Origin: Humibacillus xanthopallidus
GTDB taxonomy: Bacteria > Actinomycetota > Actinomycetes > Actinomycetales > Dermatophilaceae
Length of the DNA: 64,000 nucleotides
Direction of reading: 5' to 3'
Assembly (NCBI RefSeq): GCF_006716675.1
Contig: NZ_VFPM01000003.1
Span: 930,001-994,000, forward strand
Shown: positions 11,862-25,350 of the stretch, piece by piece
Position numbering within the stretch: the first letter of the stretch is position 1
Layout: every line of letters starts with the position of its first letter
Program-made: the position numbers and the translations under genes
The notes under the pieces: model-generated
Told to the model about the DNA's origin: nothing
Database searches by the model: none
What the model saw: only the letters and a program-made list of their open reading frames with translations

Positions 11862-14144
11862 ATGAGCCGTGACTATCTCGACTTCGATCTCGCGCTGACC
11901 CGCGACGGGTCGGCGTATGCCGTCCGCGTCGTCTCCTCGCCCGCGGGCGAGGCGTCGGCCCCCTTCGTGATGCCCTTCGTGGGAGCCGAGCTCGCACAGT
12001 TCATGATCGCCGTCGGTCCTCCACGGGTCGCCTCGCGCCGGCTCGTGCCGGTCGCCGCGCGGGTGGGCGGGGTCAAGGACTACGGGCGCAAGCTCGGCGA
12101 CGCCCTGCTCACGGGGCCGGTGCGCGACGCCTTCGCCGCGAGCCTGAACGCAGCGGGGTCGCAGGGCAAGGACCTGCGGGTGCGGCTGCGACTCGACGCG
12201 GTGCCCGAGCTCGACTCGGTGCCGTGGGAGTACCTCTACGACAGCACGCTCGAGCGCTTCCTCACCCTCTCGCAGGAGACCCCGGTCGTGCGGCTGCTCG
12301 ACTCGCTCCAACGACCGCCGGCCGTCGTCGTCGACTCCCCGCTGCGCGTGCTCGTCATGATCTCGAGCCCGTCCGACATGCCAGACCTCGCCGTCGACCG
12401 CGAGAAGCAGCTCCTTCTCGCGACGACCGCCGACATGGTCAAGACCGGGCAGCTGTCCGTCACGGTGCTCGACACAGCGACGCTCACGGAGCTGCAGCGA
12501 GCGCTGCTCGGCGACTACCACGTCTTCCACTTCATCGGCCACGGCGGCTTCGACGAGGATGCTCAGGAGGGCGTGCTCGTCCTCGAGAAGGAGGACGGCA
12601 CGAGCCACCGTGTCTCCGGCAACCGGCTCGGCACCCTGCTGCACGACGCCCGCAACATGCAGCTCGCCGTCCTCAACGCCTGCGAGGGAGCTCGCACGTC
12701 CGGACGCGACGCCTTCTCCGGAGTCGGCCAGGCCCTCGTGCGACAGGGCCTGCCGGCCGTCGTCGCGATGCAGACGGAGATCAGCGACCGGGCCGCGCTC
12801 GTCTTCAGCCACGAGTTCTACTGGTTCCTCACCCAGGGCCTCGGCATCGACGCGGCGATGTGCGAGGTGCGCAAGGCGATGGCCGTGTCCGACGAGGCCT
12901 CCGAGTGGGGCACCGCCGTCCTGCTGAGGTCTGGCACCGACCAGCCGTTCACCTTCACCACGACCGGCCCCTCGGTCGCCTCTCCGGAGAGCCGGCTCCA
13001 GTCGCTCTACGACGCGGCCCGCGACGCGATCAGCGCGGGCGAGGCCGCGACGGCTCAGCCGCTGCTCGAGCAGATCACCACGGAGAGTCCCGACTTCCGA
13101 GACGCGACCCAGCTCCTCGAGCGGGTGCGCCCCCAGACCGAGGACCGCCCTCCCCTCAACCACGAGACGGACCTCAACGACACTGTGCCGCAAACGGATT
13201 CGCGCCAGCAGGAGCAGCCGACACCTCCGCCGCCAAGGCCACCGGACACGACCGATACCTCTGGCACGTCGGGCACGTCGGGCACGTCGGGCACGTCGGG
13301 CACGTCGGAGCGGCGCCGGCCGAGCCGCATACGGCGCATCCTCCTGTGGGTCGGCGCGGCGGTCGGCGTCCTCGTCATCGCGGTCGGGGCCATCGTCTGG
13401 TGGGACTCGTCCGCGTCGTCGGTGGCCAAGGCGTGCGGCCCGGGCGGCGGCGCCTTCCCCCCGGTGCCCGCAGGCGCGCTCACGCTCGGCTGCGCGACGA
13501 CCGCGCCCGTCATCGACGGGAGCTTCGCCGACTGGGCAGGCGTGCCCGAGGGGCAGCTCGCGACGCAGGTCTTCCCGGCCCCGCCGAAGCCGGCTCCCGA
13601 CGACCTCCAGGCCACGTGGCAGGGCCAGTGGGACTCGCGCTTCCTCTACCTGCACGTCAGCGTCGACGACGCCGACCGCCGCCCGGTCGATGCGTCCAAG
13701 CCGACGGAGTTCTGGAAGGGCGACGGGGTCAGCTTCGAGTTCGGACCGGACGTGTCGACCCTTCCCGCATCGACGAAACCCCGCTCCGGCAAGGACTTCC
13801 ACGTCATGGTCGGCGTCACCTCGCTCGGTGGCCTCGCCTCCTTCAACATGGCCAACGCGGGGGCGATCCGAGACGGAGGACGCCTGACCAACGTCGTGCT
13901 CTCACGCACCGACCGCCCCGGCGGCTACGAGGTCGAGATGGCGGTGCCATGGTCCGACGTGGGCCTCGCCACTCCCCCGGCCCGAGGGTCGATCTGGGCG
14001 ATGAACGTCAACGTCAGCGACGCCGACAGCTCCTCGACGACGTGGAAGCTCGCCCGCATGATCAGCACCAACCCGGTGCGCACCGGCAACGGCCAGCCCG
14101 CCCGCTGGCAGCCGCTCGTCCTCGCCGACACGGCAGGCTCCTGA
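11862..14144 (+). CDS. Transmembrane CHAT protease with CBM9-like outer domain
   Basis: From ATG 11862 (GAGGA five bases upstream) the product has 760 residues. Residues 1-40 form a beta-rich N module (YLDFDLALTRDGSAYAVRV). A CHAT (caspase-like) protease domain spans about 100-365, with His227 in HFIGHG and Cys274 in NACEG both intact. A short TPR-like helical pair lies near 375-425, followed by a Pro/Thr linker with a GTS repeat, one transmembrane helix (about 492-514) preceded by RRRPSRIRR, and an outer domain from about 548 with PVIDGSFADW, WKGDGVSFEF and YEVEMAVPWSDVG, the pattern of CBM9/DOMON-like sugar-binding modules. The positive-inside rule puts the protease in the cytoplasm. It heads an operon with a microprotein and a caspase. 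Substrate and trigger are unknown. Confidence 0.85.
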   Translation: MSRDYLDFDLALTRDGSAYAVRVVSSPAGEASAPFVMPFVGAELAQFMIAVGPPRVASRRLVPVAARVGGVKDYGRKLGDALLTGPVRDAFAASLNAAGSQGKDLRVRLRLDAVPELDSVPWEYLYDSTLERFLTLSQETPVVRLLDSLQRPPAVVVDSPLRVLVMISSPSDMPDLAVDREKQLLLATTADMVKTGQLSVTVLDTATLTELQRALLGDYHVFHFIGHGGFDEDAQEGVLVLEKEDGTSHRVSGNRLGTLLHDARNMQLAVLNACEGARTSGRDAFSGVGQALVRQGLPAVVAMQTEISDRAALVFSHEFYWFLTQGLGIDAAMCEVRKAMAVSDEASEWGTAVLLRSGTDQPFTFTTTGPSVASPESRLQSLYDAARDAISAGEAATAQPLLEQITTESPDFRDATQLLERVRPQTEDRPPLNHETDLNDTVPQTDSRQQEQPTPPPPRPPDTTDTSGTSGTSGTSGTSGTSERRRPSRIRRILLWVGAAVGVLVIAVGAIVWWDSSASSVAKACGPGGGAFPPVPAGALTLGCATTAPVIDGSFADWAGVPEGQLATQVFPAPPKPAPDDLQATWQGQWDSRFLYLHVSVDDADRRPVDASKPTEFWKGDGVSFEFGPDVSTLPASTKPRSGKDFHVMVGVTSLGGLASFNMANAGAIRDGGRLTNVVLSRTDRPGGYEVEMAVPWSDVGLATPPARGSIWAMNVNVSDADSSSTTWKLARMISTNPVRTGNGQPARWQPLVLADTAGS
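13263..13307 (+). repeat. Five 9-bp tandem repeats in the CHAT linker
   Basis: GGCACGTCG is repeated five times without interruption and encodes (GTS)n in the cytoplasmic linker before the transmembrane helix. Because the unit is nine bases, gain or loss of copies keeps the frame and changes only linker length. Confidence 0.9.
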
Positions 14145-14165
14145 TCCGACGGAAGGAGCGCTGCG

Positions 14166-14300
14166 ATGGGCAGCGGCCACGCTGACTTCGACATCGAGAT
14201 CGTCGGTGCCCCGCCGACGTATGCCGTCTGCGTGCTGGTGGCGCGGATGGGACTGCGCCCGGTGTCCTGGCAGACGACGATCTTGTCCCTCGACGAGTAG
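14166..14300 (+). CDS. 44-residue microprotein of the CHAT/caspase operon
   Basis: ATG 14166 is preceded by a strong Shine-Dalgarno (GGAAGGAG, 14151-14158, 7-base gap), 21 bases after the CHAT stop; TAG at 14298 is 9 bases before the caspase ATG. The start, GHADFDIEIVGAPPTYAVCV, lines up with the CHAT N module (YLDFDLALTRDGSAYAVRV), so it looks like a free-standing or truncated copy of that module. The rest, ending SWQTTILSLDE, does not continue the similarity. It could be an adaptor or regulator linking the two proteases, or a remnant kept as a translational relay. The tight spacing and strong ribosome-binding site favour a translated gene. Confidence 0.6.
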   Translation: MGSGHADFDIEIVGAPPTYAVCVLVARMGLRPVSWQTTILSLDE

Positions 14301-14309
14301 GAGCACCCC

Positions 14310-16319
14310 ATGGCCGGTCACGTCTACGCACTGCTCGTCGGCATCGACGCCTACACCGGCGCCGTGCCGCAGCTGTCGGGGTGTGTCAACGACGTCACCG
14401 CCTTCGCCGCGGTGCTCCAGGGCCGGGTGTCCGCCGAGGACCTCAGCCTCGTGACGATCACCGACGAGGACGCGACCCGGGCCGCCGTCACGACGGAGTT
14501 CACGAGGCTGCTCGGACAGGCCGGCGCCGAGGACGTCGCGCTCTTCTACTACAGCGGCCACGGGGCTCACCAGGAGGCTCCCGAGGAGCTGTGGCCCTAC
14601 GAGCCCGACCACCAGAACGAGACGCTCGTGCTCGTCGACAGCCGTGAGCCGGGGGGCTGGGACCTCGCCGACAAGGAGCTCGCAGTGCTCATCGCGCAGG
14701 TCGCGGCCAGCGGCTGCCACCTGCTCGTCGTGCTCGACTGCTGTCACTCCGGCGATGCGACCCGCGACGTCGACGAGGTCGTGCGGCAGGCACCGCCGGA
14801 CAACCGACACCGGCCGATCGAGAGCTTCCTCACGGGCACCGTCGAGCAGGCGGCCGCCCAGGCAGCAGCCGCGGCGGGCGGCCAGACGACCCGCGACCTC
14901 GACCAGGCACCACGCGAACGATGGACACCTCCGGCGGGGCGGCACGTGCTGCTCGCCGCGTGCCGTTCCTCCGAGAAGGCCAAGGAGATCCGGACGCAAG
15001 GTCAGCACCGCGGCGCCCTGTCAGCGGCCCTCGAGAAGACCCTCGTGCAGTCGGAGGACACGCCGTCCTATCGCGACGTCCTGCTCATGGTGACCTCGCA
15101 GGTGACGACGACCGTACGTGACCAGCACCCGCAGTTCGAGACGGTCGACTCCAGCGAGCTGGACCGGCCCTTCCTCGGCGGCTCCATCCCCGAGACGCCG
15201 CGGCCGCTCACCCTGAGCCACCGCCCGGAGGGCTGGGTCATCGACTCCGGCGCCGTGCACGGCGTGCCCGAGCCGATCAGGATCGGCGACTCCACCGACA
15301 CCACCGAGCTCGCGATCTATGCACTCTCCGCCGTCGGTCGGGGACAGCCGCTCGCCACGGCGGTCGTCACCCGGGTGCTGCCCGACCGCTCCGTCGTCAC
15401 CGTGACTCCCGAGCTCGACCCGTCGTCGATCTACCGCGCCGTGATGACGTCCATCCCGCTCAAGCCCCTCGCGGTCGCCGTGGCGGGCGACGCTGCAGGC
15501 ACCTCCGCCCTGCGGTCGGCCGCCGACAAGGCCGACTCGACGCTCATCGACCTCATCGAGGCGTCGGACACACCACCACCTCCCGACCTGCAGGTCGAGG
15601 CGACGCCAGCTGGCTTCGTCATCACCCGACCCGGGCTCGTGCGGCCGCTCGTCCCGGTCGTCGCCGGTGAGGGGCGCGAGGGACGCACCATCGCGGCGCT
15701 CGAGCACGTCGCCCGGTGGCTGCGCCTCTCCGGGCTCACGAACCCGACGAGCCGCCTTGCGACGAACGCCGTGCGCGTCAGCGTCGTCACGGCCGACGGC
15801 CGCACGGATGACGGAGGCACGGTCGAGATCGCCTACGTCGACGACAAGGCGCCGAAGTTCACGGTGACGCTCGAGAACACGACGAAGGAGCCGCTCTGGG
15901 CGGCACTGCTCGACCTCACCGACTCGTACGGCATCTACACCGATGCCTTCGCCGCCGGCCGGGTCGCGCTCGCGCCCGGCGAGAAGACGAGCCTCGAGCT
16001 GGGCGGGGAGGTGCCGGACGTCCTCTGGAACGAAGGCATCGTGACGGTCACCGACCGTCTCATCGTCGTGACGAGCACCATGGAGTTCGACCCACGGTCG
16101 CTGCAGCAGGGCGACCTCGCCGTCAGCACGGTGCCGGGCTCGGGTGGCGGTGACGGAGCCGGCGGCATGACGACGCGCTCGGCCTTCACGCCGAGGTCGA
16201 CCCTGGAACGGATGCTGGGGAGCGTCACCACCCGCCGCCTGCCGCCGCGCACGACGGAGACGATCGCCGACTGGCGGACCAACCGCATCGACGTCGTGAC
16301 GTCGCGCCCTCACCCCTGA
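14310..16319 (+). CDS. Caspase-fold (peptidase C14) protein
   Basis: The 669-residue product starts MAGHVYALLVGIDAYTG, the standard opening of prokaryotic caspase-like proteins. The catalytic dyad is intact: His84 in YYSGHG and Cys145 in LDCCHSGD. The p20-like region ends near residue 290. The C-terminal 350 residues are mostly predicted beta-rich and unassigned, with a helical stretch around 450-480 (AALEHVARWLRLSGL) and a beta-sandwich-like stretch (VTVTLENTTKEPLWAALLDL) like those after many C14 domains. There is no signal peptide or membrane helix, so it is cytosolic. It is likely activated by, or a target of, the CHAT protease encoded first in the operon. A perfect 17-bp hairpin follows. 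Confidence 0.88.
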   Translation: MAGHVYALLVGIDAYTGAVPQLSGCVNDVTAFAAVLQGRVSAEDLSLVTITDEDATRAAVTTEFTRLLGQAGAEDVALFYYSGHGAHQEAPEELWPYEPDHQNETLVLVDSREPGGWDLADKELAVLIAQVAASGCHLLVVLDCCHSGDATRDVDEVVRQAPPDNRHRPIESFLTGTVEQAAAQAAAAAGGQTTRDLDQAPRERWTPPAGRHVLLAACRSSEKAKEIRTQGQHRGALSAALEKTLVQSEDTPSYRDVLLMVTSQVTTTVRDQHPQFETVDSSELDRPFLGGSIPETPRPLTLSHRPEGWVIDSGAVHGVPEPIRIGDSTDTTELAIYALSAVGRGQPLATAVVTRVLPDRSVVTVTPELDPSSIYRAVMTSIPLKPLAVAVAGDAAGTSALRSAADKADSTLIDLIEASDTPPPPDLQVEATPAGFVITRPGLVRPLVPVVAGEGREGRTIAALEHVARWLRLSGLTNPTSRLATNAVRVSVVTADGRTDDGGTVEIAYVDDKAPKFTVTLENTTKEPLWAALLDLTDSYGIYTDAFAAGRVALAPGEKTSLELGGEVPDVLWNEGIVTVTDRLIVVTSTMEFDPRSLQQGDLAVSTVPGSGGGDGAGGMTTRSAFTPRSTLERMLGSVTTRRLPPRTTETIADWRTNRIDVVTSRPHP

Positions 16320-16333
16320 CGTGCACCGAGAAC

Positions 16334-16370
16334 GACGAAGGGCCGGACGCGATGCGTCCGGCCCTTCGTC
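16334..16370. terminator. Bidirectional terminator between caspase and tRNA-Ala
   Basis: Perfect 17-bp arms (16334-16350 and 16354-16370) with a 3-base GAT loop. It ends the CHAT-caspase operon on the plus strand and the tRNA-Ala transcript on the minus strand. Confidence 0.9.
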
Positions 16371-16375
16371 TTCGG

Positions 16376-16448
16376 TGGAGCTGAGGGGACTCGAACCCCT
16401 GACCCCCTCCATGCCATGGAGGTGCGCTACCAGCTGCGCCACAGCCCC
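16376..16448 (-). tRNA. tRNA-Ala (GGC)
   Basis: A 73-base cloverleaf on the minus strand: 7-bp acceptor stem GGGGCTG/CAGCTCC, D arm GCGC...GCGC, anticodon stem CCTCC/GGAGG with loop ATGGCAT (anticodon GGC), T arm AGGGG-TTCGAGT-CCCCT, discriminator A. The 3' CCA is not fully encoded. A terminator follows at 16334-16370. Confidence 0.96.
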
Positions 16449-16586
16449 TTTCGGGTGCCGCCCCGCTGAGGCGACTGCGTAACAATAGCGGGTCGTCGGG
16501 CCCGATCCCAAATCGGGGGGCAGCACCTCCCGAGCCGCCGACACAGCGGTGAAAGGTCCCCGAACGAGCCCGCGATCTCTCGCCGC

Positions 16587-17246
16587 TCAGGCCTTCCACG
16601 GTCCGAGGTTCCAGCCCGCGATGCGCCAGCGCGCAGTCGCCGAGAAGCTCTTGCCCGCCTCGACGAGCTCGACCCAGTGGCAGTTGTCGAGGCCTCGGAA
16701 GACGCGGTCGGAGACGTCCTGGTCGAGGCCGACGAGGTCGCTCGCGGCGACCCGCGCCGACACGCCGTGCGCGACGACGAGGGCCGTCTCTCCGTCGCCC
16801 AGGCCGTCGGCCACCTCGCGCAGCGCCGCTCCGGCCCTGGCCGCCACGTCCTGCCGGGTCTCGCCCGTGACGCCCTTGGGCACGTCCTCCCCGCGGTCGA
16901 GCGCGGCGACGATCTCGGGGTAGCGCTCGTGCACGTCATCGACGTGCAGGCCCTGCCACTCGCCCACGTGCACCTCACGCAGCCGCTCGTCGAGGCGCAC
17001 CGGCAGGCCGGTGAGCTCGCCCACCGCCTCGGCCGTCGACACCGCGCGACGCAGGTCGCTCGAGACGATGACGACGGGACCGTATGCCGCGACGTGCGGC
17101 GCCGCCGCCGCGACCTGCTGTTCGCCGCGGTCGGAGAGCGCCGAGTCGCGGTGCCCCTGCCACACGCGGGCGGCGTTGTCGACCGTCTCGGCGTGGCGCA
17201 TCACGACGATCCGCCGCGGCCGCGGACCGCCGGGAACCAGGCTCAC
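16587..17246 (-). CDS. Histidine phosphatase family protein
   Basis: From GTG 17246 the product has 219 residues and opens with IVVMRHAET, the RHG/RHAE phospho-histidine motif. The second catalytic His is in LVVAHGVSARV, and the acid is in the LREVHVGEWQG block. The family includes phosphoglycerate mutase-like and broad phosphatases; in actinobacteria this position after rsfS is common, sometimes named as a phosphoglycerate mutase or glucosyl-3-phosphoglycerate phosphatase. The substrate is not readable here. The start overlaps the rsfS stop (GTGA), so it is part of the nadD-rsfS operon. Confidence 0.9.
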   Translation of the reverse strand: MSLVPGGPRPRRIVVMRHAETVDNAARVWQGHRDSALSDRGEQQVAAAAPHVAAYGPVVIVSSDLRRAVSTAEAVGELTGLPVRLDERLREVHVGEWQGLHVDDVHERYPEIVAALDRGEDVPKGVTGETRQDVAARAGAALREVADGLGDGETALVVAHGVSARVAASDLVGLDQDVSDRVFRGLDNCHWVELVEAGKSFSATARWRIAGWNLGPWKA

Positions 17247-23642: not shown

Positions 23643-23667
23643 GCCCGACCGATCAGGTCGGTCGGGC
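23643..23667. terminator. Convergent terminator, proB / second CHAT gene
   Basis: 10-bp arms at 23643-23652 and 23658-23667 with a 5-base loop that contains the stop codon of the CHAT gene. A smaller GACGGTCG/CGACCGTC hairpin precedes it just after proB. It serves both convergent genes. Confidence 0.75.
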
Positions 23668-25350
23668 CTGCACCGTGACGGTCAGCTCGCCGGAGTTGCC
23701 CTCGAGGTTGGTGTCGTTGATGCCGAGGTCCAGCTGCCCCTCGCGCGGGCAGTCGTAGCTCGTGCCGCTGCCGACGAAGAACGGGCCGGTCTCGTCGAGG
23801 CTGCCGATGAGTCCCGCGGTGTTCGCATCAGGAAGCCCCTCGACGTTCCACCGGTGGTAGCGCGCCTCGGTCAGCCCGTCCGGTCCCACGGTGGAGCCGG
23901 CCGAGGCGTCGTGCTGGATCGTGCCCGTGGCAGAGATGTCGAGGGTCGTGCCGGGAGCGCACGTGACGCCGCTGTCGAGCCAGCGGGTGTTGCCGGGCAC
24001 CGCGATCTCGACCGGGCTCGGCACCACGTCGGACGGCCCCTGGCTCCCCTGGCTCTCCGCACTGCTCCCGCCGGGATCGGAGGTGCTCGTCGTGGCTCCG
24101 AGCGCGGTGGCCCCCTCACCCTGCGCCGACCGGTAGACGACCGCTCCGACCCCGCCGAGCAGGAGGACGAGGACGGCGGCCGCCGCGACGAGACGCCAGC
24201 GCTGGCCGATGTGCGGCTCCGGCTCCCGCACGGGGCCCGATGATGGCTCGGCGACCTCGAAGAGACGGGTGTCCGGCCCTCGCACGTAGAGCAGCGGCGT
24301 GACCCACTCGAGGGTGCCCCGGCCGAGCCCGAGGATGCCGATGCGGCCGCTGCGCATGGCCTCGTCGACGGTGCGCCCGTTGGCGAGAGCCGTGTAGAAG
24401 CCGCGGGCGAAGGCCAGCGCCGCACGGTCGCTGATGGTGAACTGCATCGCGGCCACGGACTGGATCCCGCTGCGAGCCAATGCTGCTGCCGTTCCGGAGA
24501 ACGGGTCGTCGGAGCTGGAGGCCCCCGACTCGCAGGAGTTGAGCACGACGAGACGAGGGGTGGGTGAGGCTTCGTGCAGCAGGTCTGCGAGGCTGCTCGC
24601 CGTCACGAAGTCAGCGCGTTCGTCGGCGCCGACGAGGGCGATGACCCCTTCGTCCGCCGCATCGTCGAAGGTGCCGTGACCGATGAAGTGCAGGACGTGC
24701 CACGGGCGCTGCAGCAGCCGGTCGTGCAGCTCCGACCACGTGGCGTGCTCGACCCACTCGAGCCGGACGCGCCCCGAGCGCACGTGGTGTTCGAGCGCCT
24801 CCTCCAGGTGCTCCCGCTCGGCCGCGACGTCGAGAGGCGCCAGCCCCCGCGGTGATGACACGACCGCCAGCACCTGCAGGGGTGGGTCGATGGCCAGCGC
24901 GTCCGGAGCGTGCTCTCCTGCCACGTGACGGACCAGCGTCTCCTGGCGGCACAGGTAGGCCTGGGTGTCGCGGTCGTAGAGCATCTCCCACGGCAGCGCG
25001 GCGAGACCCGGCGCGCCAAGGCGCAGCCGCACCTGCAGCCCCTGCCCGCGATCGGCGGCGACGGCCCGGCTCGATCGGTAGATCGCGGCCACCTCGCCGA
25101 CGAAGATGGCATCGAAGAGAGCCGCCCCCGTCGACTGCACCGACACCTCGGCTGCGGGCAGGATCCGTCGCGCCGACACCGACGACGCGAGAACGACCGA
25201 CTCCAGCTGAGGTCGGGTGGCAAGCAGCGCGTCGACGTCGAGGGTGAAGTGTTCGGTGGGCTCGCCGCCCGCCACCGAGCGCACGACGTGCACGGTGAAC
25301 TCTCCCGCCCCTCCCCCGGGATCGATCTCGAGCTCCAGCACCGTGTCCAT
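23653..25350 (-). CDS. Transmembrane CHAT protease with LecA/PA-IL-like outer domain
   Basis: ATG 25350 follows a GGGGAGG ribosome-binding site and gives 565 residues. A beta-rich N module (1-40) is like that of the first CHAT gene. The CHAT protease domain (about 105-365) has His225 in HFIGHG and Cys273 in NSCESG. One transmembrane helix spans about 385-407. The outer domain, 447-562, reads VPGNTRWLDSGVTCAPGTTL, LIGSLDETGPFFVGSG and LDLGINDTNLEGNSGELTV, the pattern of the LecA/PA-IL galactose-lectin fold, with Cys464 and Cys534 able to form a disulfide. The protease should face the cytoplasm and the lectin-like domain the outside. No caspase partner is adjacent. It sits between proB and an acetate-type symporter. 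Confidence 0.85.
   Translation of the reverse strand: MDTVLELEIDPGGGAGEFTVHVVRSVAGGEPTEHFTLDVDALLATRPQLESVVLASSVSARRILPAAEVSVQSTGAALFDAIFVGEVAAIYRSSRAVAADRGQGLQVRLRLGAPGLAALPWEMLYDRDTQAYLCRQETLVRHVAGEHAPDALAIDPPLQVLAVVSSPRGLAPLDVAAEREHLEEALEHHVRSGRVRLEWVEHATWSELHDRLLQRPWHVLHFIGHGTFDDAADEGVIALVGADERADFVTASSLADLLHEASPTPRLVVLNSCESGASSSDDPFSGTAAALARSGIQSVAAMQFTISDRAALAFARGFYTALANGRTVDEAMRSGRIGILGLGRGTLEWVTPLLYVRGPDTRLFEVAEPSSGPVREPEPHIGQRWRLVAAAAVLVLLLGGVGAVVYRSAQGEGATALGATTSTSDPGGSSAESQGSQGPSDVVPSPVEIAVPGNTRWLDSGVTCAPGTTLDISATGTIQHDASAGSTVGPDGLTEARYHRWNVEGLPDANTAGLIGSLDETGPFFVGSGTSYDCPREGQLDLGINDTNLEGNSGELTVTVQARPT

Follow-up and report, generated by a model that had tools for sequence, protein, structure and literature searches.

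Introduction

Steens et al. are said to have described, in 2024, a type III-B CRISPR system in which a SAVED-CHAT protease is paired with a caspase-like protease in a cascade. A membrane-associated precedent is the EACC1-caspase two-gene system, prevalent in actinobacteria according to the relevant passages of Kaur et al. (2020; PMC7159879), in which adjacent genes encode a 5′ protein with a single transmembrane (TM) segment and a 3′ protein with an N-terminal caspase domain and a C-terminal extension. HetF, a CHAT-TM-TPR protein, acts in the cyanobacterial divisome as far as the cited passages describe it (PMC8406250). Here we analyze a 64,000-nucleotide stretch of Humibacillus xanthopallidus (contig NZ_VFPM01000003.1, positions 930,001 to 994,000; hereafter the window), which encodes a CHAT protease joined through a TM helix to a CBM9-fold domain, followed by a 44-codon open reading frame (ORF) and an orthocaspase. 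An earlier note on this DNA, made from the sequence alone, had proposed a three-gene operon. That reading is supported in part: the CHAT and caspase genes do form a unit, whereas the 44-codon gene fails as a third member and is most likely a deletion scar.

The locus shares with the EACC1-caspase system the adjacent genes, the single-TM 5′ protein and the 3′ caspase with its extension, and differs in that the 5′ protein is a CHAT protease with a large CBM9 outer domain instead of a small EACC1 protein. Its caspase scores 54.3 bits against the EACC1-associated subfamily model NF047832, below the cut-off of 140, and profile scans of the 5′ protein returned no EACC1-named match, in a library not confirmed to include an EACC1 model. 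The SAVED-CHAT system acts by a cascade of proteolysis, according to a passage citing it (PMC11229360), and provides the solved CHAT structure nearest to our model (8tl0; VIA-align Z 20.1, 2.9 Å over 192 residues). Its input is a cyclic nucleotide sensed through SAVED, unlike the TM helix and outer domain found here; we detected no SAVED domain in the CHAT protein with Pfam or NCBIfam, at E up to 1 and up to 0.1, respectively, the match to the PADLOC SAVED_CHAT model is to residues 160-404, i.e., the CHAT part and a helical hairpin, and no CRISPR gene was found among 10 flanking proteins scanned. HetF is likewise a membrane-bound CHAT protein with one TM segment, but has TPR in place of CBM9, and the cited passages mention no adjacent caspase (PMC8406250); the HetF equivalog model NF045509 gave 86.9 bits against a cut-off of 1200. 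Csx29/TPR-CHAT (Craspase) has the same CHAT fold (8d9f, Z 12.4; 7y85, Z 11.8) but works, by the titles of these structure entries, with gRAMP/Cas7-11 and RNA, and the flanking proteins scanned include no such partner. Finally, the CBM9 domain of Thermotoga xylanase 10A (1i82) shares the fold of the outer domain (Z 20.7, 21% identity), whereas the ligand residues are only partly kept here and the fusion is through a TM helix to a protease, not to a xylanase.

A literature search with little subscription or bioRxiv content yielded, among the matches listed, no description of a CHAT-TM-CBM9 protein with a caspase. To that extent the earlier note's statement that it knew of no described system with this exact layout stands, but two-protease caspase systems are known. 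What is new is this particular combination, as a second protease beside a bacterial caspase is already common.

Results

The window carries, all on the forward strand, the gene of the CHAT-TM-CBM9 protein (11862-14144, 760 amino acids), the 44-codon ORF (14166-14300) and the caspase gene (14310-16319, 669 amino acids). Gaps of 21 and 9 bases separate them, and re-reading of the ORFs gave the same coordinates and gaps as the earlier note. Purine runs resembling Shine-Dalgarno sequences lie upstream of all three starts, and pattern scans for promoters and terminators at the locus found none.

Conservation of the pair was followed through 149 genomes of the family, where close CHAT orthologues have a best E-value of at most 4.8e-171 (the next genome reaches 1.1e-104) and close caspase orthologues one of at most 9.5e-181. 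Both proteins have close orthologues in the same 18 genomes, and the remaining 131 have neither. These 18 genomes span seven genera; the linkage counts come from related genomes, not from independent events. The genes lie side by side with CHAT first in all 18, one of which (G039) has a second CHAT gene between them. Eight further genomes have weaker CHAT matches, three of them near full length, and eight others only weaker caspase matches. The distance from the CHAT stop to the caspase is 1-15 bases at 18 other loci (17 genomes and the metagenome-assembled locus L003; for six rows, homology and not a start codon defined where the caspase begins), compared with 165 bases in the window owing to the 44-codon scar. 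The two genes are also neighbours in G208 and G161, which belong to another family, but there they are oriented divergently with about 213 bases between them, and because the linkage survives this change of orientation, joint function is better supported than by synteny alone. A class-wide search gave a match in 6 of 148 genomes, at full length in the window's own genome only. Collectively, our results show that the CHAT and caspase genes form a two-gene unit. Their neighbourhood is persistent, and rarity of the gene order among homologues applies to the 44-codon gene alone.

The sister genome H. xanthopallidus DSM 21776 (L001; the same contig as G039/L041) has the order CHAT, second CHAT, caspase, and its second CHAT gene, which encodes 763 amino acids with CHAT and CBM9_1 domains, sits where the window has the 44-codon ORF. 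The ORF matches the first 29 residues of this protein with 76% identity (E=2.4e-10) and its last 15 residues with 87% identity (E=3.0e-4), and a codon-by-codon comparison places the 5′ match up to about codon 24 and the 3′ match from about codon 26. Approximately 719 codons are missing in frame, and the ORF still stops 9 bases before the caspase start. Given the agreement of both its ends with a single intact gene at this position in the sister genome, the 44-codon ORF is most likely the scar of a deleted second CHAT-TM-CBM9 gene, not a third component. With the frame intact after the deletion, it is plausible that caspase translation is coupled to the preceding gene. The genus sample consists of these two genomes, one with the scar and one with the full second CHAT gene. 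In the tree, the window's CHAT groups with its orthologue to the exclusion of the second CHAT copy, which has a long branch and joins at a fork left open.

A microprotein acting as a third component was rejected, given the parent gene in the sister genome and the lack of room between CHAT and caspase elsewhere. A microprotein gene conserved separately was not found in the relatives, neither in the other genus genome, which has the full gene, nor in the 1-15-base gaps at the other loci, and a Pfam scan of the 44-mer returned no family. The 44-residue product might nevertheless function as a peptide, for instance by mimicking a beta-strand of the CHAT N-terminus and so restraining CHAT or caspase. 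The start region, the Shine-Dalgarno-like run and the frame are intact, so the ORF is probably translated, and its ratio of nonsynonymous to synonymous substitution rates (dN/dS) is 0.181 over 35 codons. Such a low value is expected from constraint on the parent gene, however, and rests on 11 changes; with both ends matching a single intact gene at the same place in the sister, and with no space for the ORF at the other 17 loci, we consider a working peptide very improbable.

The 760-residue protein consists of a CHAT domain (residues ~1-370), a helical hairpin (~375-422), a disordered Pro/Thr-Ser-Gly linker (~426-490), a TM helix (~493-511) and a CBM9-fold domain (~538-757). Pfam CHAT (PF12770) matches residues 73-346 with E=3.8e-34 (118.9 bits, cut-off 24), and the dyad H227/C274 is invariant in 26 of 26 aligned rows. 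An AlphaFold2 model built on 26 sequences has a mean predicted local distance difference test (pLDDT) score of 78.1, with values below 50 in the linker (426-492), a long helix across the TM segment and a beta-rich outer domain. Residues 493-511 (13338-13394, forward strand) form the single hydrophobic helix, with a mean Kyte-Doolittle value of 2.68. Six Lys/Arg residues are found in the 15 residues before this helix and one in the 15 after it; the same bias around the best hydrophobic stretch is seen in 25 of 26 rows, with a tie in the remaining one. Of the 21 caspase-linked rows, 19 have two or more cysteines after the helix and the other two (L054 and L057) have none, a pattern that fits the expectation for an extracytoplasmic disulphide. 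The basic N-terminal flank and the post-helix cysteines thus fit a predicted N-in/C-out topology, with a cytoplasmic CHAT domain and the CBM9 domain outside, without being proof of it.

Pairwise comparison with the sister species gave dN/dS values of 0.083 (caspase), 0.107 (CHAT part), 0.139 (outer domain) and 0.642 (linker). The CHAT part, the outer domain and the caspase are under purifying selection, and by these values the outer domain is constrained about as much as the protease. The linker differs from that of the sister species in both length and sequence, and its Thr-Ser-Gly stretch is encoded by 9-base tandem repeats (13261-13308, forward strand; repeat family D1).

The outer domain (residues 538-757; 13473-14132, forward strand) matches Pfam CBM9_1 over residues 565-727 with E=3.5e-7 (30.7 bits, cut-off 23.4). 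A profile search against solved structures found 1i82 at E=9.7e-17, while a single-sequence search against the same structures gave no match. The modelled domain aligns best with 7nwn (VIA-align Z 21.0, 2.5 Å over 183 residues), then with 1i82. It also resembles a domain of DdvA (Z 16.7, 3.0 Å over 193 residues), a transmembrane anti-sigma factor by the naming of its structure entries. The CBM9 ligand site involves, we assume, the positions W71, E77, R98 and N100. Two of these are largely kept: 24 of 26 rows have an aromatic clamp residue at the W71 position, and 24 of 26 have Asn at N100.

A long disordered linker ending in a binding fold, with its site retained in part, would also suit a wall anchor that places the protease without sensing anything. 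The C-terminal domains of CHAT relatives bear on this. They include PD40 (L007), CARDB (L009) and a PQQ propeller (L010), while a DUF11 match in L065 fell below the Pfam cut-off (17.3 vs. 24.6 bits) and was not counted; L010 and L066 have no helix above the hydrophobicity cut-off. This variation, propellers and CARDB included, suits sensing at least as well, and we regard a pure anchor as unlikely. The varied domains are arranged as in a receptor family with exchangeable sensors. Neither a second CHAT nor a caspase was detected beside any of 10 CBM9-less CHAT relatives (L007-L010, L064-L066, L083-L085) in stretches of 8.4-20 kb, a count that is no firm control, since the profile behind it misses CHAT genes detected by Pfam (beside L058 and in L105), the stretches are of limited length and two of the ten, L010 and L066, lack a helix above the cut-off.

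The caspase partner matches Pfam Peptidase_C14 (PF00656) over residues 6-278 with E=1.5e-20 (74.3 bits, cut-off 21.4). It comprises a caspase domain (~4-292), a beta-rich C-terminal region (~300-600) and a conserved C-terminal tail, and its dyad H84/C145 is invariant in 19 of 19 aligned rows. The model, built on 19 sequences with a mean pLDDT of 66.6, aligns with metacaspase-4 (6w8r) at VIA Z 20.0 (3.0 Å over 212 residues). D143, near the catalytic Cys, is invariant in the 19 rows and presumably has a role in cleavage specificity; the enzyme is probably Arg/Lys-specific. For the C-terminal half, Foldseek returned only weak matches, to MSP/Ig-like chains. The short C-terminal tail (TR ... ADWRT ... 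V.T.RP; window ~16230-16310), which follows a variable stretch modelled with low confidence, is invariant in 19 of 19 caspases and could be a docking or cleavage site.

The protein features that the earlier note had listed were borne out. Pfam, alignment and hydropathy agree with its CHAT dyad and single TM helix, profile search, alignment and fold comparison with its caspase-fold protein, and profile search and structure prediction with its CBM9-like outer domain. Two of the conditions that it named as refuting its reading, dyads not conserved among homologues and an outer domain without a binding fold, do not apply, as no aligned row (26 for CHAT, 19 for the caspase) departs from the dyad and a CBM9 fold was recovered.

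Discussion

We propose a two-gene, membrane-linked module in which a ligand-sensing TM CHAT protease acts with a co-expressed orthocaspase, a reading to which we give a rough probability of 0.45. The CHAT protein would cross the membrane once, with its protease in the cytoplasm and its CBM9-fold domain outside, while the caspase would be cytoplasmic and probably made from the same transcript. Binding of a carbohydrate or wall ligand outside may alter the clustering or shape of the receptor, after which the CHAT domain would cut and activate the caspase, or both would cut a shared substrate. The caspase would carry the output, most simply growth arrest or self-killing upon envelope disturbance. 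The N-in topology, ligand binding, the direction of the cascade and its outcome are what we infer. CHAT most likely acts upstream of the caspase, given the reported SAVED-CHAT cascade (cited passage of PMC11229360) and the position of the sensor domain. Death or arrest is weakly preferred as the outcome because the wider caspase relatives look like effectors.

Non-lethal regulation is nearly as likely, owing to the ordinary genomic site and the HetF and DdvA precedents. In this alternative, regulated proteolysis serves envelope homeostasis, division or development without killing: CHAT cuts a regulator and the caspase processes it further. The divisome protein HetF, with its CHAT-TM-TPR architecture (passages of PMC8406250), and the domain of the same fold in DdvA favour it, as does the presence of the unit at one site in seven genera among ordinary metabolic genes. 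On the other hand, the score against the HetF equivalog model is far below its cut-off, no sigma factor or division gene was found among the 10 flanking proteins scanned, and the wider caspase relatives on plasmids, some with an alpha/beta hydrolase domain, appear more effector-like. As a whole, we regard this alternative as somewhat unlikely.

The unit occupies one chromosomal site. Upstream-flank genes are found beside the unit in 17 of 17 relatives, and a downstream histidine-phosphatase gene lies within the stretch in 14 of 17; it is 7 kb off in G021 and past the contig end in L051 and L054. A tRNA-Ala(GGC) gene (16374-16448, reverse strand) borders the unit in the window, as it does in all 12 pair-bearing relatives scanned. 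It is also present at the empty site of the relative G026, where the same flanks occur without the pair and about 183 bases separate the tRNA gene from a small-multidrug-resistance gene.

Patchy presence and an intact empty site beside a tRNA gene would suit anti-phage defence by abortive infection, with the outer domain sensing phage damage to the wall, and PADLOC gave matches to SAVED_CHAT (1.2e-14) and caspase (3.2e-34). Against this, no integrase was found among 20 neighbouring proteins scanned, the repeat families listed (20 of 22) include none that directly repeats the tRNA end, and the pair keeps the same chromosomal site with ordinary metabolic neighbours in seven genera. The CHAT query matched 17 plasmid records, none of them over 80% of its length, and the sole phage-labelled record looks bacterial. 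We therefore consider a defence role improbable. A mobile defence island was likewise rejected, as tRNA direct repeats, plasmid or phage copies and flank proteins gave no sign of one, except perhaps a DUF222/HNH protein in L050.

The phage-labelled record, L069 (MT836801.1, 'Bacteriophage sp.', from human faeces), is 8.7 kb long with 75% G+C and encodes a CHAT-CBM9 protein, together with a subtilisin-like protease and a ROK-like protein, both recognized by inspecting the translations; the record resembles a contig from an actinobacterium. No neighbouring protein with a C-terminal CHAT domain is in view in this record, which begins 1 kb upstream.

Gene content between the caspase and the tRNA-Ala gene (window 16320-16590; L046-L048, L050, L052, L053 and L055) differs by species. 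Ten proteins between or near the two in six relatives include glycogen-debranching-like enzymes, a glycosyltransferase, BioY, an AMP-binding enzyme and a maleylpyruvate isomerase-like protein, as well as the DUF222/HNH protein of L050. L055 (4842-12283; G063) has the order CHAT, caspase, BioY and second CHAT-TM-CBM9, i.e., an extra receptor copy beyond the caspase.

Several observations weigh against the proposed ligand-sensing module. The CBM9 site is only partly kept, with Ser at the E77 position in 24 of 26 rows and mostly Ser or Ala at the R98 position, where Arg occurs in one row only, so that sugar binding is putative. In some relatives the best stretch is only moderately hydrophobic (mean 1.27 in L050 and 1.42 in L051), and the caspase model is weak near the active site, with pLDDT below 50 at 85-122 and 145-210. 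Five family loci (L058-L062) encode a CHAT-TM-CBM9 protein without this caspase. Their neighbour is instead a protein that ends in a CHAT domain and has HG and NAC dyad motifs (5/5), and the caspase is thus not an obligatory partner. Four of the five neighbours resemble one another (41-63%) and are encoded divergently from the receptor gene; the remaining one is distant, at 29-30%, and is encoded upstream of the receptor gene in the same direction.

A second protease is also common beside caspases on plasmids. The caspase search gave 54 plasmid records with a match, 23 of them with a query coverage of 80% or more; a single Streptomyces clavuligerus gene accounts for 16 of the 23 and was counted once, leaving 8 loci in cyanobacteria, Rhizobium, Deinococcus and Streptomycetaceae. 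For comparison, 10 of the remaining 31 records were hand-picked for variety, and neighbours were called by combining annotations, our own profiles and Pfam (six proteins). A second caspase or CHAT lies beside the plasmid caspase in 6 of 8 full-length relatives and 9 of 10 partial ones. Such pairing thus recurs across subfamilies, and being neighbours does not by itself set this pair apart. A neighbouring CHAT specifically was found in 3 of 8 full-length and 2 of 10 partial relatives. CHAT-caspase pairing as a rule for this caspase subfamily is not supported by the plasmid comparison.

An additional alpha/beta-hydrolase-like domain, DUF7379, is present in caspase relatives from Rhizobium and Deinococcus and in the paralogue L067 of the window's own genome; a CHAT gene lies within 3 kb in Rhizobium and adjacent in L067. 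Pairings of caspase and alpha/beta hydrolase are described in passages of Kaur et al. (PMC7159879). In L067 (5495-11665; G000:C2 ~467494-473664) a C-terminal-CHAT protein precedes a caspase (48% to the window's caspase described here) fused to DUF7379, and in the sister genome G039 caspase and CHAT matches likewise lie together. The L067 CHAT paralogue lacks a GHG motif and has VHG at 681 and NAC at 777, and its activity is putative. The CHAT query has six matches in the window's own genome, itself included. About 7 kb from the operon, the window encodes an additional CHAT protein (23653-25350, reverse strand; 565 amino acids, CHAT E=1.5e-36) with a single hydrophobic segment near residue 387.

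The 44-codon ORF illustrates that a small in-frame ORF resembling a microprotein gene can be a deletion scar, which is relevant to the annotation of small genes. More broadly, actinobacteria and some relatives may hold a family of one-pass receptor proteases whose conserved CHAT domain inside the cell is joined by a TM helix to outer domains that can be exchanged (CBM9, PD40, CARDB, perhaps a PQQ propeller), and in which the CBM9 type works with a partner clan-CD protease, either the caspase or a second CHAT, as a ligand-gated relay resembling a death receptor. We put this forward as a tentative and still doubtful generalization. If the relay is true, it would be a bacterial counterpart of receptor-to-caspase signalling, in which binding outside the cell is passed by a TM protease to a caspase, whereas the inputs of the known CHAT and caspase systems compared here are nucleotides, RNA or unknown. 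With exchangeable outer domains, the inputs of bacterial caspase-like pathways could then be tested directly with defined ligands.

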